Both the position numbers and the translations under genes were made by a program. This document shows, one piece after another, positions 8,175 through 45,160 of a stretch of DNA of 64,000 bases; positions within the stretch are counted from its first letter, which is position 1, and the number at the start of each line of letters is the position of its first letter. The notes beneath the pieces were generated by a model. It had not been told where the DNA came from, did not search any database, and saw only the letters and a list, made by a program, of their open reading frames with translations. The stretch comes from Candidatus Binatia bacterium (lineage in GTDB: Bacteria > Desulfobacterota > Binatia > UBA12015): assembly GCA_029243485.1 (NCBI GenBank), contig JAQWRY010000086.1, positions 372,001 to 436,000 on the forward strand, written 5' to 3'.

Positions 8175-9122
8175 ATGCGCGCACTTGTCTGGGATGGCCG
8201 GGAGCTGGGCTTCGTAGACGATGTTCCACCGCCGACGCCCACGGATGGCACGGCCGTCGTGCGGGTTCGGCTCGCCGGCATATGCTCGACAGATCTCCAG
8301 ATCCTGAAGGGATACATGGGGTTTCGCGGGATTCTCGGTCACGAGTTCATCGGCGAAGTCGTGGAAGGGCCGCCTGATCTCCAAGGCCGCCGCGTCGTAG
8401 GCGAGATCAACTTCGCCTGCGGTCGCTGTGAGACCTGTCAGGCGGGCAGGCCACGGCACTGTCCCGTGCGCACCGTGCTCGGCATTCAGGGGGCTGACGG
8501 TGCCTTTGCAGAGCTGGTTCGCCTGCCGGTTGAGAACCTCCACGTGGTGCCGGACGACGTGGATGACCGCACCGGGGTCTTCGTCGAGCCCCTCGCCGCC
8601 GCCTTCGAGTCGGACGCACAGACCCGCGACCTCGCGGGCGGCAAGTCCGCGGTCGTCGGCGCCGGCAAGCTCGGGCTCCTCGTCGCACAGGTCCTGGCGG
8701 CCCGAGGGGACGACGTTACCGTCGTGTGCCGAAGCGAGGGCGCTCGGCGCCGGGTCGGGGCTCTCGGTCTGCACGCTGCCGACGAGCGCTCCGCGTCTGC
8801 GGGACGCGACCTCGTGGTCGAAGCCACGGGCGCGGTAGAGGGACTCGCGATCGCCATGGGTCTAGTGCGTCCCCTGGGTACGATCGTCGTGAAGTCGACC
8901 GTCGCGGCGCACCACTCACTGGACCTGGCGCCGATCGTGATCCACGAGATCTCGCTCGTGGGATCCCGTTGCGGGCCGTTCGCGCCCGCTCTCGAGGCCC
9001 TGCGGACGGCGGCCGTGTCGGTCGCGCCGCTGCTCGACGAGGTCTACCCGCTCGAGCGGGGGGTCGAGGCCGTCGCTGCTGCGGCCCGACCCGGCTCCCT
9101 CAAGTTCCTACTCGAACCATAG
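8175..9122 (+). CDS. Zinc-dependent medium-chain alcohol dehydrogenase
   Basis: MDR-superfamily NAD(P)-dependent dehydrogenase of the threonine/sorbitol dehydrogenase branch. Visible features are the catalytic zinc cysteine in GICSTD, the HEF motif, four structural-zinc cysteines in CGRCETCQAGRPRHC, the VEPLAAA motif and a Rossmann glycine pattern (VVGAGKLGLLVAQVL). At 315 residues it is about 30 shorter than typical members, mostly in the nucleotide-binding half and C-terminus. The substrate cannot be told. It begins 30 bases after the exported hypothetical and ends 6 bases from a convergent gene. Confidence 0.85.
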   Translation: MRALVWDGRELGFVDDVPPPTPTDGTAVVRVRLAGICSTDLQILKGYMGFRGILGHEFIGEVVEGPPDLQGRRVVGEINFACGRCETCQAGRPRHCPVRTVLGIQGADGAFAELVRLPVENLHVVPDDVDDRTGVFVEPLAAAFESDAQTRDLAGGKSAVVGAGKLGLLVAQVLAARGDDVTVVCRSEGARRRVGALGLHAADERSASAGRDLVVEATGAVEGLAIAMGLVRPLGTIVVKSTVAAHHSLDLAPIVIHEISLVGSRCGPFAPALEALRTAAVSVAPLLDEVYPLERGVEAVAAAARPGSLKFLLEP

Positions 9123-35003: not shown

Positions 35004-37424
35004 TCAGAAGGCCTGTCGGGTTCCGAACAGGACCTGGATGTCCTGTTGATCGCGGTCGAGTCGGGTCGCCAGCTCGAGGTAGGCCGAGCCCGGGAAGAAG
35101 CCCATGAAGTCGTAGAGGAGGCTGACCCCGACCCCGCCGCCGATGGCCCAGTTCGCGGGATTCACCGCCCGTCCGGCAGCATCGTCGACGTTGCCGGCGT
35201 CGAGGAAGAGGCGAACCTGCGGGCGGCGGTACGTCAGGAAGTCCAGGAGGTTCAGGTCGAACTCGGGGTAGACCGCCTGCCTCAGCTCGAACCGCGCGAG
35301 GCCGATGTTGCGGGCGAGTTCCTGGTTGATCGAGATGCCGCGGATCGCGCGTTGGCCGCCGAGCGCGTACTGCTCCTGGATGGGAACGCCGGACGCCGAG
35401 AAGTCCTGCTCGAAACCGCCGAGAAGCTCTAGTGCTGCGAGCGTGTTCGGCGAGAAGATCTTTGTCGTGCCGCGCAAGCGCGCGCCGTAGCGTAGGAAGC
35501 TGTAGTCGCCGCCGAGCGCCGAGTCGTAGCCGTCGACGAACAGTCGGAGGTTCCGCTTCTCCGTCGGGTTGTTGAACCAATAGACGTTGGAATAGTCGTA
35601 CCGGATTCCGAAGCCACCGATGCCCCCGGTGCTCCGCACGTCGGGGCGGCTATCGTCTTTGAACCCCGAGACGAGGCCCGAGATCTGGTAGAACAGCAGG
35701 ACGTTGTGTCGGTAGTTGTTTGGGTCGTTTCGCGATCCGAAGTGGAAGCGCGGGCCGGTGCGGAGGCCGTACGAGCGCTCGCTGAAGTACGGCGCGAACA
35801 CGATGTCCTTGGTGTAGTCGGAGCGTTTGCGCAGCAGGAACAACGCACCGAACCCAAACTGCGACGAGCTCACGTCGATGTCCGCGCTGTCGAGGATGAA
35901 CTGATACTTCGACCGCTCCCGCCGCGGTCGGAGGTTCGGATCGATGCGCGCCCGGGGGCCATCCGGAACGACGGGAACGCGAGCACTCTCGAGTTCCTCG
36001 CGCACCCGGGAAGGCTGCTGTGGTGTCGATGCCTGGAGGGTCTCGGCGAAGGTCACGCACGGCCCGTCGAGTCGTCCGAGGTAGGTCTCGATGGCGGAGG
36101 TCAGCGGTTCTTCGCCGACGCTGCGGTCGAGGCGGGCGAACGACAGGCGGGCCGGGGGCGCGACCCGGGCGTAGCTGAAGACGCTCTCGCGCAGTTCGTC
36201 GTCCGTCAGCGAGTTCTCGAAGAACGCCTCCACGAACGGGATCTTCGGCGCCGATTCGAAGCGGTCTACGATGGCGAGGAAATCGAGATATCGGATCCAG
36301 TCGTGCACGCTCTGGTGGTCCGGGTCCGTCGCCGCGAGGAACCGGTCGGCGAGGTACCAGGCCACGCCTTGCTGGATCCAATTGCGCTGCCCGGGGGGCT
36401 CGCACTCCATCATACGAGGCTGCAGTAACGCGGCGTACACGGCCTGCGCGATCTGCGCGCCGTGAAAGCCGCTGAGCACGTCCTGGACGTGCATCGCCCG
36501 ATCCGAGATCACGATCGGCGCGTCGCTCTGCGAGGTGAGATTCCAGCGCAGCGGGATCTGCGCAACCGTGAGGGCATCGGGCGCCGTGAGCGTGTTGGGC
36601 CTGTGGTCGAACGCGTGCAGGACCAAGGTCTGGAACCGCGTGTCCGGCTCGGGGTCCGGCCCGAGTCGATATGCGCGCGGCTCGTGGGGCTCGATGAAGC
36701 GGATCTTCGTATCGCCGCGGACGGACTCTGCGATGTCGGCGTCGAGCGGTGCGAGTAGGGCGAGGTTCCGCACGAGAGCGTGGGTCGTGCGGACGCTTCC
36801 TCCGTGCCCCGCCGGGAACACGGCGTCCCCCAGCACGAGCGCTCGATCGCTCGGGGCCTGGACGTTCGCGTCGACATTCGCGGGAGGCGGCGCCCAATCG
36901 GGGTGCCAGCCTCCATTGTCGTCGCGGGCGACGAGGTAGGGGTGCCACCCGCCGACCGCGGCGAAGCCTTGTTCGGTCACTCCGAAGGGGCCGAAGCGTT
37001 TCGGCACGTCGGTGCGGAACGCGACCACGATCTCGACCGACGTAAGCCCGCCCGCGGGAAGGTCGATCTCGAGGAGTGTCTCCTCGTCGGAACCCTGCGG
37101 CCGGTCGAGCCGGTGCGGCAATGCCTCGCCCGATGCGAGTTGCACGCCTTCGACTGTGATCCCGCCAGGGTGGAAGATCCCTCGCGGGTACACGTAGCGG
37201 CGCGTGGTGTCGTCGACTTCGGGCCCCTCTTTGCGGAACCGATTCGGGTAGAGGTGTAACAGGGCGACGTCGTCGCTGCGCTCGAACCGGATTCGTACCG
37301 TTCCCTCGATGACGCCGGCGTCGGGCTCGAGCGATGCCGCGATGTCGTAGCGGGGTGCCGCTGTCGCGACCGCGGCACCGAGGAAGACCTGCAGGAGGGC
37401 CAGGAGGAGCCGCGCGCGGTGCAT
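35004..37424 (-). CDS. M1-peptidase-like (inactive) domain fused to an Omp85-type outer-membrane barrel
   Basis: An 806-residue protein. Signal peptide 1-23 (LLLALLQVFLGAAVATA). Residues about 25-235 resemble the M1 aminopeptidase N-terminal saddle (YDIAASLEPDAGVIEGTVRI). Residues about 240-480 resemble its catalytic domain, but the zinc motif HExxH is HGAQI at 321-325 and the WLNEG glutamate is glutamine (WIQQG, 349-353), so peptidase activity is unlikely. Residues about 500-806 form a beta-barrel with the Omp85 L6 signature LGGQRAIRGI (R695-G696) and a terminal aromatic strand ending VLFGTRQAF. The product is probably outer-membrane with a surface or periplasmic M1-like module. Assignment of both halves is by motif. 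Confidence 0.75.
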   Translation of the reverse strand: MHRARLLLALLQVFLGAAVATAAPRYDIAASLEPDAGVIEGTVRIRFERSDDVALLHLYPNRFRKEGPEVDDTTRRYVYPRGIFHPGGITVEGVQLASGEALPHRLDRPQGSDEETLLEIDLPAGGLTSVEIVVAFRTDVPKRFGPFGVTEQGFAAVGGWHPYLVARDDNGGWHPDWAPPPANVDANVQAPSDRALVLGDAVFPAGHGGSVRTTHALVRNLALLAPLDADIAESVRGDTKIRFIEPHEPRAYRLGPDPEPDTRFQTLVLHAFDHRPNTLTAPDALTVAQIPLRWNLTSQSDAPIVISDRAMHVQDVLSGFHGAQIAQAVYAALLQPRMMECEPPGQRNWIQQGVAWYLADRFLAATDPDHQSVHDWIRYLDFLAIVDRFESAPKIPFVEAFFENSLTDDELRESVFSYARVAPPARLSFARLDRSVGEEPLTSAIETYLGRLDGPCVTFAETLQASTPQQPSRVREELESARVPVVPDGPRARIDPNLRPRRERSKYQFILDSADIDVSSSQFGFGALFLLRKRSDYTKDIVFAPYFSERSYGLRTGPRFHFGSRNDPNNYRHNVLLFYQISGLVSGFKDDSRPDVRSTGGIGGFGIRYDYSNVYWFNNPTEKRNLRLFVDGYDSALGGDYSFLRYGARLRGTTKIFSPNTLAALELLGGFEQDFSASGVPIQEQYALGGQRAIRGISINQELARNIGLARFELRQAVYPEFDLNLLDFLTYRRPQVRLFLDAGNVDDAAGRAVNPANWAIGGGVGVSLLYDFMGFFPGSAYLELATRLDRDQQDIQVLFGTRQAF

Positions 37425-37502
37425 CGGTCTTTCCTAGCTGGCCTCCAGCTTCTTGGAAACGGGTGGGATGAACCGCGCCCGAGGGTCGCGTATCCTACTG
37501 GA

Positions 37503-38090
37503 ATGGCCGACGAAGAAGATTACGGACCGCAGGGTGACGAGAGCCGTCACCTACCGCTGGAAGAACTCGAAGCGGCCTGGAGCCGCTTTCCCGCCCCGCC
37601 GGCGGACACCGGCCGAGTCGCTCTGATCGTGTCGCGGCGGGCCGATGGCGTGCGGGATACACCTCAGCGGGCTCGCCTCTCGGCCAAAGAGGGCGTGCCG
37701 GGCGATCGCTGGGCGCGGCGCACGGGCGACCGGCCCGACATGCAACTCGCGGTCATGCGGCGCGATATCGCCGAGTTGCTCGCGAACGGCCAAGCCATCA
37801 CGCTGGCCGGTGACAATCTCTTCGTGGATCTCGATCTGTCCGACCAAAACCTCCCGGCCGGCTCCCGGCTGCGGGTCGGCGCCGCGGTCGTCGAGGTTTC
37901 GCCCGAGCCGCACAACGGCTGCCGGAAGTTCATGGGTCGGTTCGGCAACGACGGGCTGCGCTTCATCTCGGACAAGGCCAAGCGCGATCAGCACATGCGC
38001 GGCGTCTATTGGACGGTCGTCGAGGCGGGCGATGTCGCGGTGGGCGACTCGATAGAAGTCCTCCAGCGCGGGGCCTCGGCACCAGCGTAG
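37503..38090 (+). CDS. MOSC-domain protein
   Basis: A 195-residue protein with a MOSC (MoCo sulfurase C-terminal) beta-barrel. The conserved cysteine is in HNGCRKFMGRFG, and LFVDLDLSDQNLPAGSRLRVG and VPGDRW match the family. Members such as YiiM and YuaD move sulfur or reduce N-hydroxylated compounds with molybdenum cofactor. The start at ATG 37503 removes a spurious upstream extension. The N-terminal 40 residues are acidic and helical, outside the domain. MoCo genes occur about 7 kb away but in a separate operon. Confidence 0.85.
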   Translation: MADEEDYGPQGDESRHLPLEELEAAWSRFPAPPADTGRVALIVSRRADGVRDTPQRARLSAKEGVPGDRWARRTGDRPDMQLAVMRRDIAELLANGQAITLAGDNLFVDLDLSDQNLPAGSRLRVGAAVVEVSPEPHNGCRKFMGRFGNDGLRFISDKAKRDQHMRGVYWTVVEAGDVAVGDSIEVLQRGASAPA

Positions 38091-38138
38091 ACCACCGCCG
38101 TAGACGTGGGCGGGGTCCACCCGTATGACTCCTCGGTC

Positions 38139-39077
38139 ATGGCGGGACAGGGCGACATCTCTCTGTCAGGGGCGCTCCGTTGGGACGGGCTCTTCTGGCG
38201 CCGAATCGCCTACTACGGGGCCGCCCATGGTCCCGATTGGTGGAAGAAGGGCATGCCGCCGCTATTTGGCTCTCTGTTCTTCGCGCTGATTGGCCGCAAC
38301 AGACGGGCAGTGGTCCAGAACCTCCGGCAGGTCCTCGGGCAGCCTGGTTGGCGGGCCGAGCATCGAGCGGCTCTGCAGACGTTCATCGAGTTTGCGTACG
38401 TGTTCCAGGAGACACTCGAGTTCGAGGGCCATCGTCTGCACGGGTCCGATCTTGCCGACGCCCTCGAGCTGGAGCTCGACATCCAGTACCCGCCGGACTT
38501 CGACCTCGACGAGATCCTCGCGCAGAAGCAGGGGCTCATCGTGCTCACCTCCCATTTCGGTTGCTGGGAGATCGGCGCACGGGTCATGCAGAAGCTCGAT
38601 CGGCCCGTGAATCTGGTGATGGCTACGGAAGCGAACGCGACCGTCGAGCGGTTCGCCGTGGAGAAGAAAGAGCAGCATGGGCTGAAGGTGATCCACTCCG
38701 ACCGATCCGCGTTCTCTTCGGTGGAGATGATCCGCGCGCTGCGACGAGGCGAGATCGTGGCGATCCAGCTCGATCGCGCGGCACCTGGCCAGGTGACGCA
38801 GCCAATCGACTTCTTCGGTAAACCGGCGCCGTTCCAGATCGGGCCGTTCATGCTCGCGAAACTCGCCGGAGTTCCCGTCTGGCCCGTGTACGTCGTGCGA
38901 TTGGGTCGGCGGCGCTTTCGGTTCCTTCCGGAACCGGTGCGGCACATCGACCGACAGGCGAGCCGGGATGAGGTCGTGGACGTGATGCGGGATGTCATGG
39001 GCAGCTTCGAACAGAACGTTCGTGCCTACCCGCATCAGTGGTTCCAGTTTCACGACGTCTGGGACAGTGGTACCTGA
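38139..39077 (+). CDS. LpxL/HtrB-type lysophospholipid or lipid A acyltransferase
   Basis: Membrane-bound acyltransferase of about 312 residues with the HxxxxE catalytic motif in LTSHFGCWEIG. It also shows the late block LDRAAPGQ, ARVMQKLDRPVNLV and a single N-terminal membrane anchor region (LFGSLFFALIG). Start is uncertain: ATG 38139 is used; GTG 38106 would add eleven residues. It heads a four-gene set with plsC-like, GT2 and AMP-forming ligase genes. That context suggests acylation of a glycolipid or aminolipid other than lipid A, but the acyl acceptor cannot be told. Confidence 0.85.
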   Translation: MAGQGDISLSGALRWDGLFWRRIAYYGAAHGPDWWKKGMPPLFGSLFFALIGRNRRAVVQNLRQVLGQPGWRAEHRAALQTFIEFAYVFQETLEFEGHRLHGSDLADALELELDIQYPPDFDLDEILAQKQGLIVLTSHFGCWEIGARVMQKLDRPVNLVMATEANATVERFAVEKKEQHGLKVIHSDRSAFSSVEMIRALRRGEIVAIQLDRAAPGQVTQPIDFFGKPAPFQIGPFMLAKLAGVPVWPVYVVRLGRRRFRFLPEPVRHIDRQASRDEVVDVMRDVMGSFEQNVRAYPHQWFQFHDVWDSGT

Positions 39078-39082
39078 GGCGC

Positions 39083-39871
39083 ATGCAGCAGCTACGGATT
39101 CCGGCCACACAGTGGGACGACGAACTCGTGACGAGCGTCGGCGCGTCGGCCGCGTCCCGCGCCCGGATCTTCCTGAACCGCATCCTCTTCCGCGCGATGG
39201 TGTTCTTCTGTGGAGCGGTCGCCGCGGTCCTGCATCCGCTCTCCCGCGAGAGGGCGTGGCAGTGGGTGGCGTTTTCGGCGCGAAGTCTGGGCGTCGCGAC
39301 CGGGGTCGAGGTGAAGCTCTTCGGGCTCGAGAATCTCCCCGCCGGCCCGAGCGTGCTCACGCCGAACCACGCGAGCCACTACGACATCGCCGCGTTGCTG
39401 GGATACCTGCCGGGCAACAATAGATTCGCCGCGAAGAAGGAGTTGTTCCGCGAGCCGATCCTTGGCGTGGCGATGAAGACCCTCGGAATGATCCCGATCG
39501 ATCGCGACGATCCCGCGAAGTCGATTGAGCGGCTCAACCGACTTGAAGAAGGTGGCCGCGGCGCGTTCTCGCTCGTGATGTTCCCGGAGGGAACGCGGTC
39601 CACGGAAGCCGGACTGCAGCCCTTCAAGAAGGGAGCCTTCGCGCTCGCCATCCAGCTGAAGCGACCCATCGTTCCGATCGCGATTCACGGCACCTCGGGC
39701 GTGATGCCGCGTGGCAGGTACCTGTCGATCCGTCCGGGCACCGTGGTCATCGAGGTGCTTCCCCCGATTGAGACCGCGGATCTGATTTACGACGATCGCG
39801 AACGTCTCTGTGATCAGACCCGCGCGGAGATCTTCGCGCGTCTCTCGCGGGCGCGAGAAACCGCGGAGTGA
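39083..39871 (+). CDS. PlsC-type 1-acyl-glycerol-3-phosphate acyltransferase
   Basis: A 262-residue lysophosphatidate-type acyltransferase. The HxxxxD motif is NHASHYD, the second motif is MFPEGTRST and a third is KRPIVPIAIHG. ATG 39083 begins six bases after the LpxL-like stop; ATG 39038 would overlap that gene. It shares its stop with the GTG start of the GT2 gene (GTGA). Having two different acyltransferases in one operon implies a diacylated product. Confidence 0.88.
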   Translation: MQQLRIPATQWDDELVTSVGASAASRARIFLNRILFRAMVFFCGAVAAVLHPLSRERAWQWVAFSARSLGVATGVEVKLFGLENLPAGPSVLTPNHASHYDIAALLGYLPGNNRFAAKKELFREPILGVAMKTLGMIPIDRDDPAKSIERLNRLEEGGRGAFSLVMFPEGTRSTEAGLQPFKKGAFALAIQLKRPIVPIAIHGTSGVMPRGRYLSIRPGTVVIEVLPPIETADLIYDDRERLCDQTRAEIFARLSRARETAE

Positions 39872-40560
39872 GCGAGCCCCGGATTGCGGCGCTGATCCCC
39901 TGCCTCGACGTCGAGGGTACGCTCGGCGCGGTGATTCAGGGGGTGCTCGCGCACGTCGATCACGCCCTCGTCGTGGACGATGGATCGACCGACAGTACGA
40001 GCGCAGCAGGAGCATCGGCAGGCGCCGACGTCCTGCGGCACGAGAAGAACCTGGGCAAGGGGGCCGCGCTGCGTTCGGGAATGGAACGGCTGCGCGACCA
40101 GGGATACACGCACGTCTTCAGCGTCGACGGGGACGGACAGCATCTGACCGACGAGATGCCCGTGCTCCTCGAGGAATGGCGCGAGGCCCCCGATGCCATC
40201 GTGGTGGGTGAGCGCATTCGTGAAGAGGGGCAGGAGGTCGCGGGGATCCGGCGGTTCGGGAACGACTTCGCGAACTGGTGGGTCGCGCTCGCGGCGGGGA
40301 CACGGTTCCCTGACACCCAATCCGGATTCCGGATCTACCCGATTGCCCCGACGCTCGGCCTTGGCGTCCGAGCCGATCACTACGAGTTCGAGAGCGAGGT
40401 TTTGATCCTCGCGGCCCGCCGGGGGCTCGATGTGAGGTCGCGGAAGGTGCACGTCTACTACCCTCCGCCCGACCGACTCGTGAGCCACTACAATCCGTGG
40501 ATCGACACGATTCGGATCATCAAGACCGTCGTCCCGTTCGCGGCCGGTTGGCGTGGATGA
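39868..40560 (+). CDS. Glycosyltransferase family 2 (dolichol-phosphate-mannose synthase-like)
   Basis: A 230-residue GT-A enzyme without membrane helices. It shows VVDDGSTDSTS, the DxD-like DGDGQHLTD and the RFPDTQSGFRIYP motif characteristic of polyprenyl-phosphate hexose transferases such as DPM1. It starts with GTG overlapping the plsC-like stop. The most likely product is a lipid-linked sugar. It is the third gene of the lipid operon. Confidence 0.9.
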   Translation: MSEPRIAALIPCLDVEGTLGAVIQGVLAHVDHALVVDDGSTDSTSAAGASAGADVLRHEKNLGKGAALRSGMERLRDQGYTHVFSVDGDGQHLTDEMPVLLEEWREAPDAIVVGERIREEGQEVAGIRRFGNDFANWWVALAAGTRFPDTQSGFRIYPIAPTLGLGVRADHYEFESEVLILAARRGLDVRSRKVHVYYPPPDRLVSHYNPWIDTIRIIKTVVPFAAGWRG

Positions 40561-40610: not shown

Positions 40611-42011
40611 ATGGACGGAGGACACGGCAGAGCGGCTCAGCCCGTGGCGTCCCGCGACGAGATCCTACGGTTGGCGATCGAGCGCGCGCGACAGAGCCCT
40701 TTCTACGCGCAGCATCTCGAGGGCCACACGCTGGAGTCGCGCAAGGATCTCGCGTCGCTCCCGTTTACGAAGAAGGGTGACCTGACCGCGGCGAGCCCCT
40801 TCGGCATGTTGGCGGTGCCGCCGTCCAAGGCGTGGCACTACCACGAGACCAGCGGAACCACGGGCGAGCCGACGTCGACGTGGTCGGGGCTCGACGAGCT
40901 GAAGCTGATGGCGACGCGCGTGCACTCGATGGTGCCCGAGCTCGATACCGAGACGATTCTGCTGAATCGATTCCCGCTGTTCGCGCCGGTCTCGTTCGTG
41001 TTCGAAGAAACGCTCCGACAGGCCGGAGCCTGTCACATCGCCGCCGGCAACATGAGCTGGGACGTGCCGTTCACCCGTGCGCTCGAGTTCATCCAGCGGC
41101 TGAAGGTGACGGCGATCTCGAGTCTTCCGCTCGAGCCCATCCTTCTTCGCGAGCTGGCCCGGGATCAGGGGCTCGATCTCCGGAAGGGTCTCGGCTCTGT
41201 CGAGGTGATCTTCTGCGGTGGTGCGGTTCTCCCTCCGGCGCTTCGCCGAGTTATCGAGCACGACTGGGAGGCTCGTATCGTCGAGATCTACGGATCGAAC
41301 GAGACGATGCTCATGGGCGTCGGGTGCACCGAGGGGCGGCTGCACCTTTGTGAAGAGCTTCTCGAGTTCGAGATCCTGCATCCCGATACCCACGAGCCGG
41401 TCGGTCCGGGCGAAGCCGGGATCGTGACGATCACGAGTCTGGTGCAGGAGGTCATGCCGCTCGTGCGGTACGTCACTGAGGACCTCGTTCGCCGCGAGAC
41501 CGAGCCGTGCCCGTGCGGCCGGGCCGACGAGACGATCGAGGTGCTCGGGCGCCTGGAGGAGGCCGTGGAGATCGCCGGTGGCCGTGCGATGCACTACGAG
41601 ATTCTGGACGCCGCCTACGAGTTCGCGGACGAGCTCGGGACCCGGATCTTCTTCATCTTGATTCGGCCCCACGAGCTGCGGCTGCTGGTTGAACTCGATG
41701 ATCCCAGCGGCGCGCATCCCGTAGAGGCAGAGCGCAAGCTCGCCGAGCGGATCGGTCTACCGATCACGGTCGAGCGGCTCGGGCCGAACGAAGTTCTCGA
41801 TCGCAGCGCGATGTTCCGGACGCCTTCGATCTACAAGCCGTCGGTGATCAGTGACTGGCGCCGCCCGGGACGCAAGCCCATCACGATCATGGAGGCGTTG
41901 CTCGAGTGGCCGACGTTCGACGGTCGGACGCTCTTCCATCTCGGCAAGCGTCAGATCCGAAACGCGCTTCGGCGGCGCCGCCTCACGCGCGAAGACGCGC
42001 AGCGAAGCTGA
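40611..42011 (+). CDS. AMP-forming acyl/aryl-CoA ligase, PaaK-like
   Basis: ANL-superfamily adenylate-forming enzyme of 466 residues related to phenylacetate-CoA ligase and coenzyme F390 synthetase. Visible motifs are SGTTGEPTST (ATP loop), YGSNETMLMG (A5), and a cysteine pair CPCGR followed by EVLGRLEEAVEIAGG. It activates a carboxylic acid as AMP ester for transfer to CoA or a carrier. The C-terminal basic stretch (RQIRNALRRRRLTRE) is unusual. It starts 50 bases after the GT2 gene and closes the four-gene set. Confidence 0.88.
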   Translation: MDGGHGRAAQPVASRDEILRLAIERARQSPFYAQHLEGHTLESRKDLASLPFTKKGDLTAASPFGMLAVPPSKAWHYHETSGTTGEPTSTWSGLDELKLMATRVHSMVPELDTETILLNRFPLFAPVSFVFEETLRQAGACHIAAGNMSWDVPFTRALEFIQRLKVTAISSLPLEPILLRELARDQGLDLRKGLGSVEVIFCGGAVLPPALRRVIEHDWEARIVEIYGSNETMLMGVGCTEGRLHLCEELLEFEILHPDTHEPVGPGEAGIVTITSLVQEVMPLVRYVTEDLVRRETEPCPCGRADETIEVLGRLEEAVEIAGGRAMHYEILDAAYEFADELGTRIFFILIRPHELRLLVELDDPSGAHPVEAERKLAERIGLPITVERLGPNEVLDRSAMFRTPSIYKPSVISDWRRPGRKPITIMEALLEWPTFDGRTLFHLGKRQIRNALRRRRLTREDAQRS

Positions 42012-43738: not shown

Positions 43739-45160
43739 ATGGTGAGTCGTAGTCTCCGCGTCCTGCTGATCTCGGCCAACACCGAGCAGCTCCCGGATCC
43801 CGTGTTCCCTCTCGGGGCCGCCTACATGGCGGCCGTGGCCGAGCGCGCGGGGCACGAGGTCGACTCGATCGATCTCTGCTTCCTCGACGATCGGCCGGAG
43901 CAGGTGGCCGAGAAGATCCGCGTCTTCGCGCCGGATGTCATCGGCATCTCACTGCGGAATCTGGATTCGTCGTCCTACCCCGAGAACACCTCGTACATCG
44001 ACGACTACCGGTCGCTCGTCGAGGCGGTCCGCAACCAGAGCGACGCGTTCATCGTCCTCGGGGGCGCGGGCTTTACGGTGATGCCGGCGACGATCATGCA
44101 GGTCCTGCCGGCGGACGCGGGTGTCGTGGGCGAGGGGGAGCACGCGTTTCCCTGGATCCTCACGCGGGTCGCCGATCGGGTTGCCCTCGAGACGACGCCG
44201 GAAGTTCTCTGCGAGCCGGCGGGACAGGGCGTTCTCGTGACACCTGTGACGCGCATCAAGCAGCTCGATGTCACGGGCGCCCCGATGCGGCAGAGGTTCG
44301 ACATGGACCTGTACTACGAGCGCGGCGGCGCTTTGAACATCCAGACCAAGCGCGGCTGTATGTTCGAGTGCGTCTTTTGCAGCTATCCGCTCATCGAAGG
44401 CTCGAAGGTGCGGATGCGCACGGCCGAGATCGTCGTGGACGAGATCCAGCAGATGCGTGAGGAGTTCGGCGTCCGTCACCTCTTCTTCGTCGACAACATC
44501 TTCAACCTGCCGATGCGGCACGCGAAGAACATCTGCGAGGAGATCATCCGTCGCGAACTGGACGTCGAGTGGTCGGGCTATCTCAACCCGAAGTTCATCG
44601 ACGAAGAGTTGTGCCAGCTCATGGCGCGGTCGGGTTGCAAGGCGATCGAGTTCGGAACGGACGCCGGTTCGGCGACGATGATCGAGAGCCTCAAGAAGGA
44701 GTTCGACATCGGCGATCTTCGGCGGACGTCGAAGCTCTGCCACGACCACAACCTGAAGTTCTGCCACAGCCTCATCTTTGGGGGCCCCGGCGAGAACAAA
44801 CAGACGGTGAACGAGACCCTGCAGCTCATGGACGAGCTTCAGCCGACTGCCGTGATCGCCATGACGGGGATCCGGATCCTGCCGGGCACCGGGATGGTCG
44901 ACCTGGCGATCCAGGACGGACAGATCGACGAGACGGACAACCTTCTGTACCCGCGCTTTTACATCTCACCCGGGCTGAAGGGGGAGATGATCGAACAGAT
45001 CGAGGGGCACGCGAAGACCCATCCGAATTGGATCGTGCCCGGCAAGAGCATCCGGACCAATGTCGCGGTCCTGCGGAAGCTGCGGGAGCGGAAGGTGAAG
45101 GGCCAGCTCTGGCGGCTCCTTCGACCTGCCAAGGGAACGGGAGCGGCAGCCCGACCCTAG
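43739..45160 (+). CDS. B12-binding-domain radical SAM enzyme
   Basis: A 473-residue class B-type radical SAM protein. Residues about 1-170 form a cobalamin-binding-like Rossmann domain (VLLISANTEQ, IVLGGAGFTVMP) but without the DxHxxG base-off motif. The radical SAM core has CMFECVFC (CxxxCxxC) in KRGCMFECVFCSYP, and later IFGGPGENKQTVNETL. Relatives methylate unactivated carbons or modify lipids such as hopanoids and chlorins. Nearby acyltransferases and an SDR make a lipid substrate reasonable but unproven. Confidence 0.88.
   Translation: MVSRSLRVLLISANTEQLPDPVFPLGAAYMAAVAERAGHEVDSIDLCFLDDRPEQVAEKIRVFAPDVIGISLRNLDSSSYPENTSYIDDYRSLVEAVRNQSDAFIVLGGAGFTVMPATIMQVLPADAGVVGEGEHAFPWILTRVADRVALETTPEVLCEPAGQGVLVTPVTRIKQLDVTGAPMRQRFDMDLYYERGGALNIQTKRGCMFECVFCSYPLIEGSKVRMRTAEIVVDEIQQMREEFGVRHLFFVDNIFNLPMRHAKNICEEIIRRELDVEWSGYLNPKFIDEELCQLMARSGCKAIEFGTDAGSATMIESLKKEFDIGDLRRTSKLCHDHNLKFCHSLIFGGPGENKQTVNETLQLMDELQPTAVIAMTGIRILPGTGMVDLAIQDGQIDETDNLLYPRFYISPGLKGEMIEQIEGHAKTHPNWIVPGKSIRTNVAVLRKLRERKVKGQLWRLLRPAKGTGAAARP

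Follow-up and report, generated by a model that had tools for sequence, protein, structure and literature searches.

The window, a stretch of 64,000 nucleotides from a Candidatus Binatia bacterium (GenBank assembly GCA_029243485.1, contig JAQWRY010000086.1, positions 372,001 to 436,000), carries on its reverse strand a gene whose product is predicted to join an M1 peptidase-like module to an Omp85-type barrel, next to a forward-strand series of genes that begins with a divergent MOSC-domain gene. The features are listed below in window coordinates.

35007..37424, minus strand: pseudo-M1-Omp85 fusion gene, 806 amino acids (ATG at 37424, stop codon 35004-35006)
37359..37424, minus strand: Sec-type signal peptide, residues ~1-22, without a lipobox Cys (by eye)
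36660..37355, minus strand: region like the M1 N-terminal (saddle) domain, residues 24-255 (AlphaFold and structure comparison; boundary approximate)
35985..36659, minus strand: region like the M1 catalytic domain, without zinc site, residues 256-480 (structure and profile-profile comparison, alignment)
36450..36464, minus strand: HGAQI in the HExxH position, residues 321-325 (alignment)
36366..36380, minus strand: WIQQG in the WxxEG position, residues 349-353 (alignment)
36255..36269, minus strand: VDRFE, residues 386-390 (same in 19 of 19 aligned rows)
35007..35927, minus strand: predicted Omp85-type barrel, residues ~500-806, last residue Phe (Pfam, profile search, alignment)
35334..35363, minus strand: L6-type motif LGGQRAIRGI, residues 688-697 (alignment)
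37419..38090, plus strand: divergent neighbour with a MOSC domain (by eye, its real start is likely to lie inside the given frame)
38106..39077, plus strand: LpxL-type acyltransferase, matching E. coli ApeJ (sequence match)
39038..39871, plus strand: PlsC-type acyltransferase, the window copy falling below the ApeD threshold (sequence match)
39868..40560, plus strand: GT2 glycosyltransferase, matching E. coli ApeJ (sequence match)
40611..42011, plus strand: AMP-binding ligase that scores below the cut-offs of the related PaaK, BagE/FevW and flexirubin FlxY models (profile match)

Neighbouring genes were called with a home-made, GC3-based pick that miscalls a miaB-like gene at 33.5-34.9 kb, so the start positions given for the neighbours are approximate. 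The fusion frame is a real gene rather than a chance frame, since it has close relatives that match over the full length at 80% and 74% identity and its dN/dS is low: the 24 values obtained (eight pairs, three regions each) ranged from 0.065 to 0.589 and were all below 0.6, with dS close to saturation in several of the pairs. The barrel was the most constrained region in six of the eight pairs, was tied in one and was not in the other. Selection maintains both halves of the fusion protein. A decaying pseudogene was also considered; it is ruled out by the intact frames and the same dN/dS range.

Detection of the M1 domain by sequence alone failed, both with Pfam (the window protein and the relatives scanned) and with a sequence search of the PDB, and structure and profile-profile comparison were therefore required. 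AlphaFold models were built from eight-row alignments for the window protein (mean pLDDT 66.6) and for a relative, L035 (63.0); the first 37 ten-residue blocks of the window model include 24 with a pLDDT of at least 80, and residues 372-421, including the best-conserved VDRFE, were below 50. Against the PDB, the best M1 match of the window model had a Z of 23.9 over 362 aligned residues (rmsd 5.3; VIA) and that of the L035 model a Z of 24.6 over 417 (rmsd 6.8). By their titles, the best 50 rows in each of four such comparisons were M1-type aminopeptidases, EryP, LTA4 hydrolase or complexes containing one. The 19-row profile of the fusion family matched two bona fide M1 proteins from the phylum, both with HExxH, at a probability of 94.5 (E 7.5e-8, 415 columns), as against 0.2 and 0.3 for an unrelated pump and acyltransferase used as controls. 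This alignment is two columns off register and of low confidence at the HExxH helix, and the WxxEG tryptophans do line up; with the distant member G385 in a seven-row alignment (A5), the M1 match shrank to its final portion (156 columns, probability 92.4). As modelled, then, the front half of the fusion protein has the M1 saddle and catalytic-domain fold. An earlier, sequence-only reading of this DNA had recognized M1-like saddle and catalytic regions and proposed AlphaFold modelling of the chain; the M1 fold was obtained, with the window and L035 models both matching M1 structures. Between the M1 core and the barrel, 14 of the 19 aligned family members have a beta-sandwich-like region of ~100 residues, which all six members of family f1, the window protein among them, lack.

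Conservation was read from an alignment (A3) of 19 of the 23 genomes of the window's class with the fusion; left out were G043, whose gene is broken across two frames, G104, truncated by the beginning of a contig, G110, of which a contig start leaves just the barrel, and G006, with a doubtful start, and the G010 row starts within the signal peptide. HExxH was found in none of the 19 rows, and no chain has it anywhere along its length. Its first histidine (H321) is invariant, followed by E in 12 rows, G in two, Q in two and A, D or R in one each, and the fifth position of the motif holds L (14), I (3) or V (2) and never His. At the glutamate of WxxEG there is E in 12 rows, D in three, Q in three and A in one, with Gln in the window protein, and the distance to this position from the first His is 30-31 residues in all 19, compared with 22 in L073, a genuine M1 protein (by eye). 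Also invariant in 19 of 19 are PLR 291-293, S307-D308, W349 and VDRFE 386-390. Members of the window's genus have lost the most, with HG or HA followed by WxQQG. GxMEN is the exopeptidase motif of M1 peptidases; around its expected place the window protein has SDAPIVISDR, and no MEN occurs there in the 19 rows. Of the two members from a second class, one has HQESL and the other QNAKV (by eye) in the place of HExxH; in G536 the first His, too, is gone (by eye).

These observations bear out the earlier claims that HExxH is lost as HGAQI (residues 321-325) and the WLNEG glutamate as WIQQG (residues 349-353). That reading also asked whether homologues share the loss of the zinc site, and the outcome is as it predicted: all 19 lack HExxH. 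In detail, the second His is always gone, and the catalytic-Glu and third-ligand positions, lost in the window's genus, are each still Glu in 12 of 19. Because HExxH is missing from all 19 while other residues are invariant and dN/dS stays below 0.6, we conclude that the protein is a maintained, presumably catalytically dead M1 module on an Omp85-type barrel.

The C-terminal half is predicted to be an Omp85-type barrel. In the window protein this half gives an Omp85 Pfam match of 20.6 bits, below the cut-off of 24, and a weaker ShlB match; relatives L035, L056, L037 and L055 pass the cut-off, L054 and L044 miss it, and the distant L072 has no Omp85 Pfam match. A profile built from seven rows finds BamA (4k3c) with an E of 6e-4, the match lying in the L6 region. 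The stretch LGGQRAIRGI, which we take to be the L6-type motif, has its Arg in 19 of 19 rows of A3 and Arg-Gly in 16. Strand count and topology are of low confidence, the ten-residue barrel blocks below pLDDT 60 numbering 15 of 31 in the window model and 28 of 31 in that of L035. No POTRA family match was given by Pfam in the window protein, an eight-row scan or six further relatives; a short divergent POTRA near residues 481-520 is conceivable. A barrel with the L6 RG motif, as first described, thus appears to be Omp85-type on sequence grounds, its models being of low confidence, and the pairing of a dead M1 domain with such a barrel agrees with the structure, profile and alignment results together.

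Matches to the fusion protein were found in 29 of 148 genomes of the window's class. The fusion is present in 23 of the 148: 21 with both halves, of which one is split over two frames, and G104 and G110, which are cut by contig ends. Five class genomes have a weak barrel match only (G020, G032, G045, G052 and G053), and one of the same genus as the window (G003) retains only a C-terminal remnant of the gene (L048, ~8407-8499). The split gene in G043 (L043) represents a frameshift or an assembly error. Among 395 sampled genomes of the phylum and 26 of the class of G385, the fusion occurs outside the window's class only in G385 and G536, from one family of a second class; other matches in the phylum sample were a short barrel stretch or the C-terminal part of an M1 protein. 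A plasmid search gave no match. In the gene tree, families f1, f11 and f13 each form a well-supported group, f6 is left open, and good support is found for 12 of the 18 inner branches.

The gene context of the fusion points to a lipid or pigment-lipid pathway. Using the aryl-polyene (APE) proteins of E. coli CFT073 as queries, we compared ORFs within 10 kb of the fusion gene in 21 loci, a set without G104, G110, G003 and the two second-class loci and with several loci shorter than 10 kb on one side; KR and methyltransferase matches were left out as too general. Two or more APE-matching ORFs were present in 12 of the 21 loci and one or more in 14, compared with no match in any of 20 control stretches, each 20 kb long and hand-picked at round coordinates, rather than at random, in six of these genomes. 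When kinds of gene were counted instead of ORFs, nine of the 21 loci had at least two kinds. Because the loci share descent, 12 loci do not amount to 12 independent events, and the differing gene sets in f1, f11, f13 and f15 are a better argument for the link than the locus count. For neighbour groups, six-frame clustering was dropped because the antisense ORFs of GC-rich DNA overwhelmed it, and a single-linkage group (F1) that mixed LpxL acyltransferases with B12-radical-SAM proteins was excluded from the counts.

In the f1 loci, the ligase and the transferases adjoin the fusion gene, and PlsC-type counterparts of the window gene in G001, G005, G006 and G010 do match ApeD. Some 40-50 kb further along the window's contig lie a ketosynthase, reductase, ligase, ACP and pump. 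In f13 (G112 and G038) and in G057, the fusion gene is followed by an ACP, LolA and an RND/MMPL pump; a FabA-like dehydratase is also present in G038, a ligase of one sequence group occurs in both G112 and G057, and a lipoprotein of G112 matches LolB1 at 21.1 bits, where the cut-off is 50. Ketosynthases, a reductase, an ACP, LolA, a dehydratase and a pump come after the fusion gene in G111, and a ketosynthase with a chain-length-factor-like ORF is found in G031, G105 and G051; G031 also has many other APE-like genes nearby. One APE match each was found in G018 and G002. ApeN (DUF3261) was the best match of no ORF in the fusion loci.

Several other features of these neighbourhoods were noted. 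In the window's own genome (G000), the distal genes occupy ~448.9-459.9 kb of contig C86 as an APE-like core of ketosynthase, ketoreductase, AMP ligase, ACP and MMPL pump, and the pump has one TGA within its match, yet an open frame of 891 amino acids. A B12-binding radical SAM protein is encoded near the fusion gene in several families (window 43739-45160; L036, L037, L042 and L056). Three f11 loci have one sequence group between the fusion gene and the ketosynthase (L040:8870-9313, with an MGS-like domain by Pfam; also L041 and L055), and in G112 caspase-domain and WD40 proteins are encoded directly before the fusion gene (L054:2409-5872).

The APE link does not extend to every member. No APE match was found nearby in seven of the 21 loci (f6 loci G024, G030, G037, G043 and G050; G015; and G025, a 5-kb contig). 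The second-class fusion genes are flanked instead by phosphoglycerate-mutase-like and nucleotidyltransferase-like genes (named by eye), and G003 has kept the LpxL/PlsC/GT2 operon despite loss of the fusion gene, with no MOSC gene called beside the remnant. Given the seven loci, the different second-class context and the loss in G003, the link is likely to represent a specialization within part of the fusion family, or else the protein has a broader role.

The fusion gene lies among polyene-lipid-type genes in many relatives and may therefore help to deliver such lipids to the outer membrane. We tentatively favor a role in the outer membrane as the component to which an APE/flexirubin-like lipid, or a lipoprotein of the same pathway, is delivered or by which it is inserted; this reading could well be right without being probable in itself. 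One could envision the dead M1 fold occupying the place of the POTRA arm on an Omp85-type barrel and, by analogy with PlpD, lying in the periplasm, where its cleft would bind a ligand rather than cut peptides; it might take over the pigment lipid (or else a carrier or lipoprotein belonging to the pathway) from a LolA/MMPL route and pass it to the barrel wall, there to enter, cross or flip in the outer membrane. LTA4 hydrolase, an M1 enzyme, acts on a polyunsaturated lipid, and its structures are among the matches of the L035 and window models; this makes reuse of the M1 fold for a lipid plausible and proves nothing. A more specific version, in which a new Omp85 architecture with a dead aminopeptidase fold as polyene-lipid receptor would supply the outer-membrane translocation or insertion step that is missing for aryl-polyene/flexirubin-type pigment lipids, we consider rather unlikely. 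The guess in the sequence-only reading of a binding or secretion module is compatible with the findings as a candidate function. As described for E. coli, the last step of the APE model may be a flip to the outer leaflet, and the relevant section names no protein for it (PMC8253772); in PlpD, the lipid-active domain is described as staying in the periplasm beneath its Omp85 barrel (PMC11116518); and flexirubin loci presented with LolA2 and LolB2 serve us as an analogy for the proposed route (PMC11885536). Against this reading, the weakly LolB-like lipoprotein of the f13 cluster could itself do the proposed job. CFT073 has a broken piece of a ShlB/FhaC-family gene beyond its ape genes, so that such neighbors can be incidental. 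The ShlB/FhaC family is of the Omp85-superfamily kind.

Alternatively, the protein could be a specialized assembly factor for outer-membrane proteins, with the pseudo-M1 domain replacing POTRA as a peptide receptor and the barrel inserting one or a few clients. This we judge unlikely on balance, yet the strongest of the competing explanations: an M1 cleft naturally holds peptides, the barrel is apparently Omp85-type with an L6 motif, the Omp85 proteins studied before PlpD are described as assembling or moving proteins (PMC11116518, PMC4104836), and no APE context would be required, as in f6 and the second class. However, it leaves the APE linkage (12 of 21 loci against 0 of 20 controls) unexplained, and no neighbor group besides the fusion itself is common to all loci. 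A receptor or sensor, that is, a ligand-binding pseudo-enzyme on a closed barrel that transports nothing and serves something like the lipid homeostasis of PlpD without catalysis, would accord with the account of PlpD as having a periplasmic domain and apparently no lateral gate (PMC11116518), and the invariant PLR, SD, H, W and VDRFE suggest a site that has been kept. These residues may equally be structural, however, and no signaling gene was noticed as a constant neighbor among the neighbor groups, so we regard this explanation as improbable.

The same conserved positions bear on whether the module could still be a hydrolase with a non-canonical metal or acid-base site. H321 is invariant and Glu persists at the HE and WxxEG positions in 12 of 19 rows each, but the remaining rows have G, A, Q, D or R there, a second His occurs in none, the His-Glu spacing of 30-31 departs from the 22 of L073 (by eye), and G536 is without the first His (by eye); residual activity therefore seems very unlikely. 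Least credible of all is export of the M1-like domain through the barrel to the cell surface, as in type Vd-like secretion. This was formerly the model for PlpD as set out in PMC4104836, but it is contradicted for PlpD in PMC11116518, on account of which we do not adopt it as the main reading, and the cargo would be a folded domain of ~450 residues.

Compared with known systems, the fusion protein shares the saddle and catalytic-domain fold, as modelled, with M1 aminopeptidases and LTA4 hydrolase (1z1w, ERAP1, E. coli PepN), and 14 of the 19 aligned rows retain the beta-sandwich-like region of such enzymes as well; unlike these enzymes, it has no HExxH, an incomplete WxxEG, no GxMEN-type motif and an attached barrel. 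PlpD-type patatin-Omp85 proteins likewise have an enzyme-like N-terminal domain on an Omp85 barrel, but in PlpD this is a patatin domain with reported phospholipase activity, accompanied by POTRA, whereas in the fusion protein it is a seemingly dead M1 domain and no POTRA was found. With the subfamilies of Heinz and Lithgow (2014; BamA, TamA, WD40, Metallo, noNterm and others) it has the barrel with the L6 motif in common. A pseudo-M1 domain on an Omp85 barrel is absent from the ten Omp85/TpsB architectures in the main text of that article, none of which is described with an M1 domain and where the word 'peptidase' does not occur, and its Metallo group corresponds to PF00149 (PMC4104836). Among the papers listed from the open-licence PMC literature, none was seen to name an M1-Omp85 fusion; four papers there contain both 'Omp85' and 'peptidase M1', and by their titles two deal with chloroplast outer envelopes, one with bacteriocins and one with a Burkholderia immunoproteome. 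The E. coli ape gene table contains no Omp85 or M1 protein (PMC8253772), unlike the fusion loci, which share with the E. coli APE and Flavobacterium flexirubin clusters the ACP, ketosynthase, LolA, pump, acyltransferases and ligase, as well as a weak LolB match.
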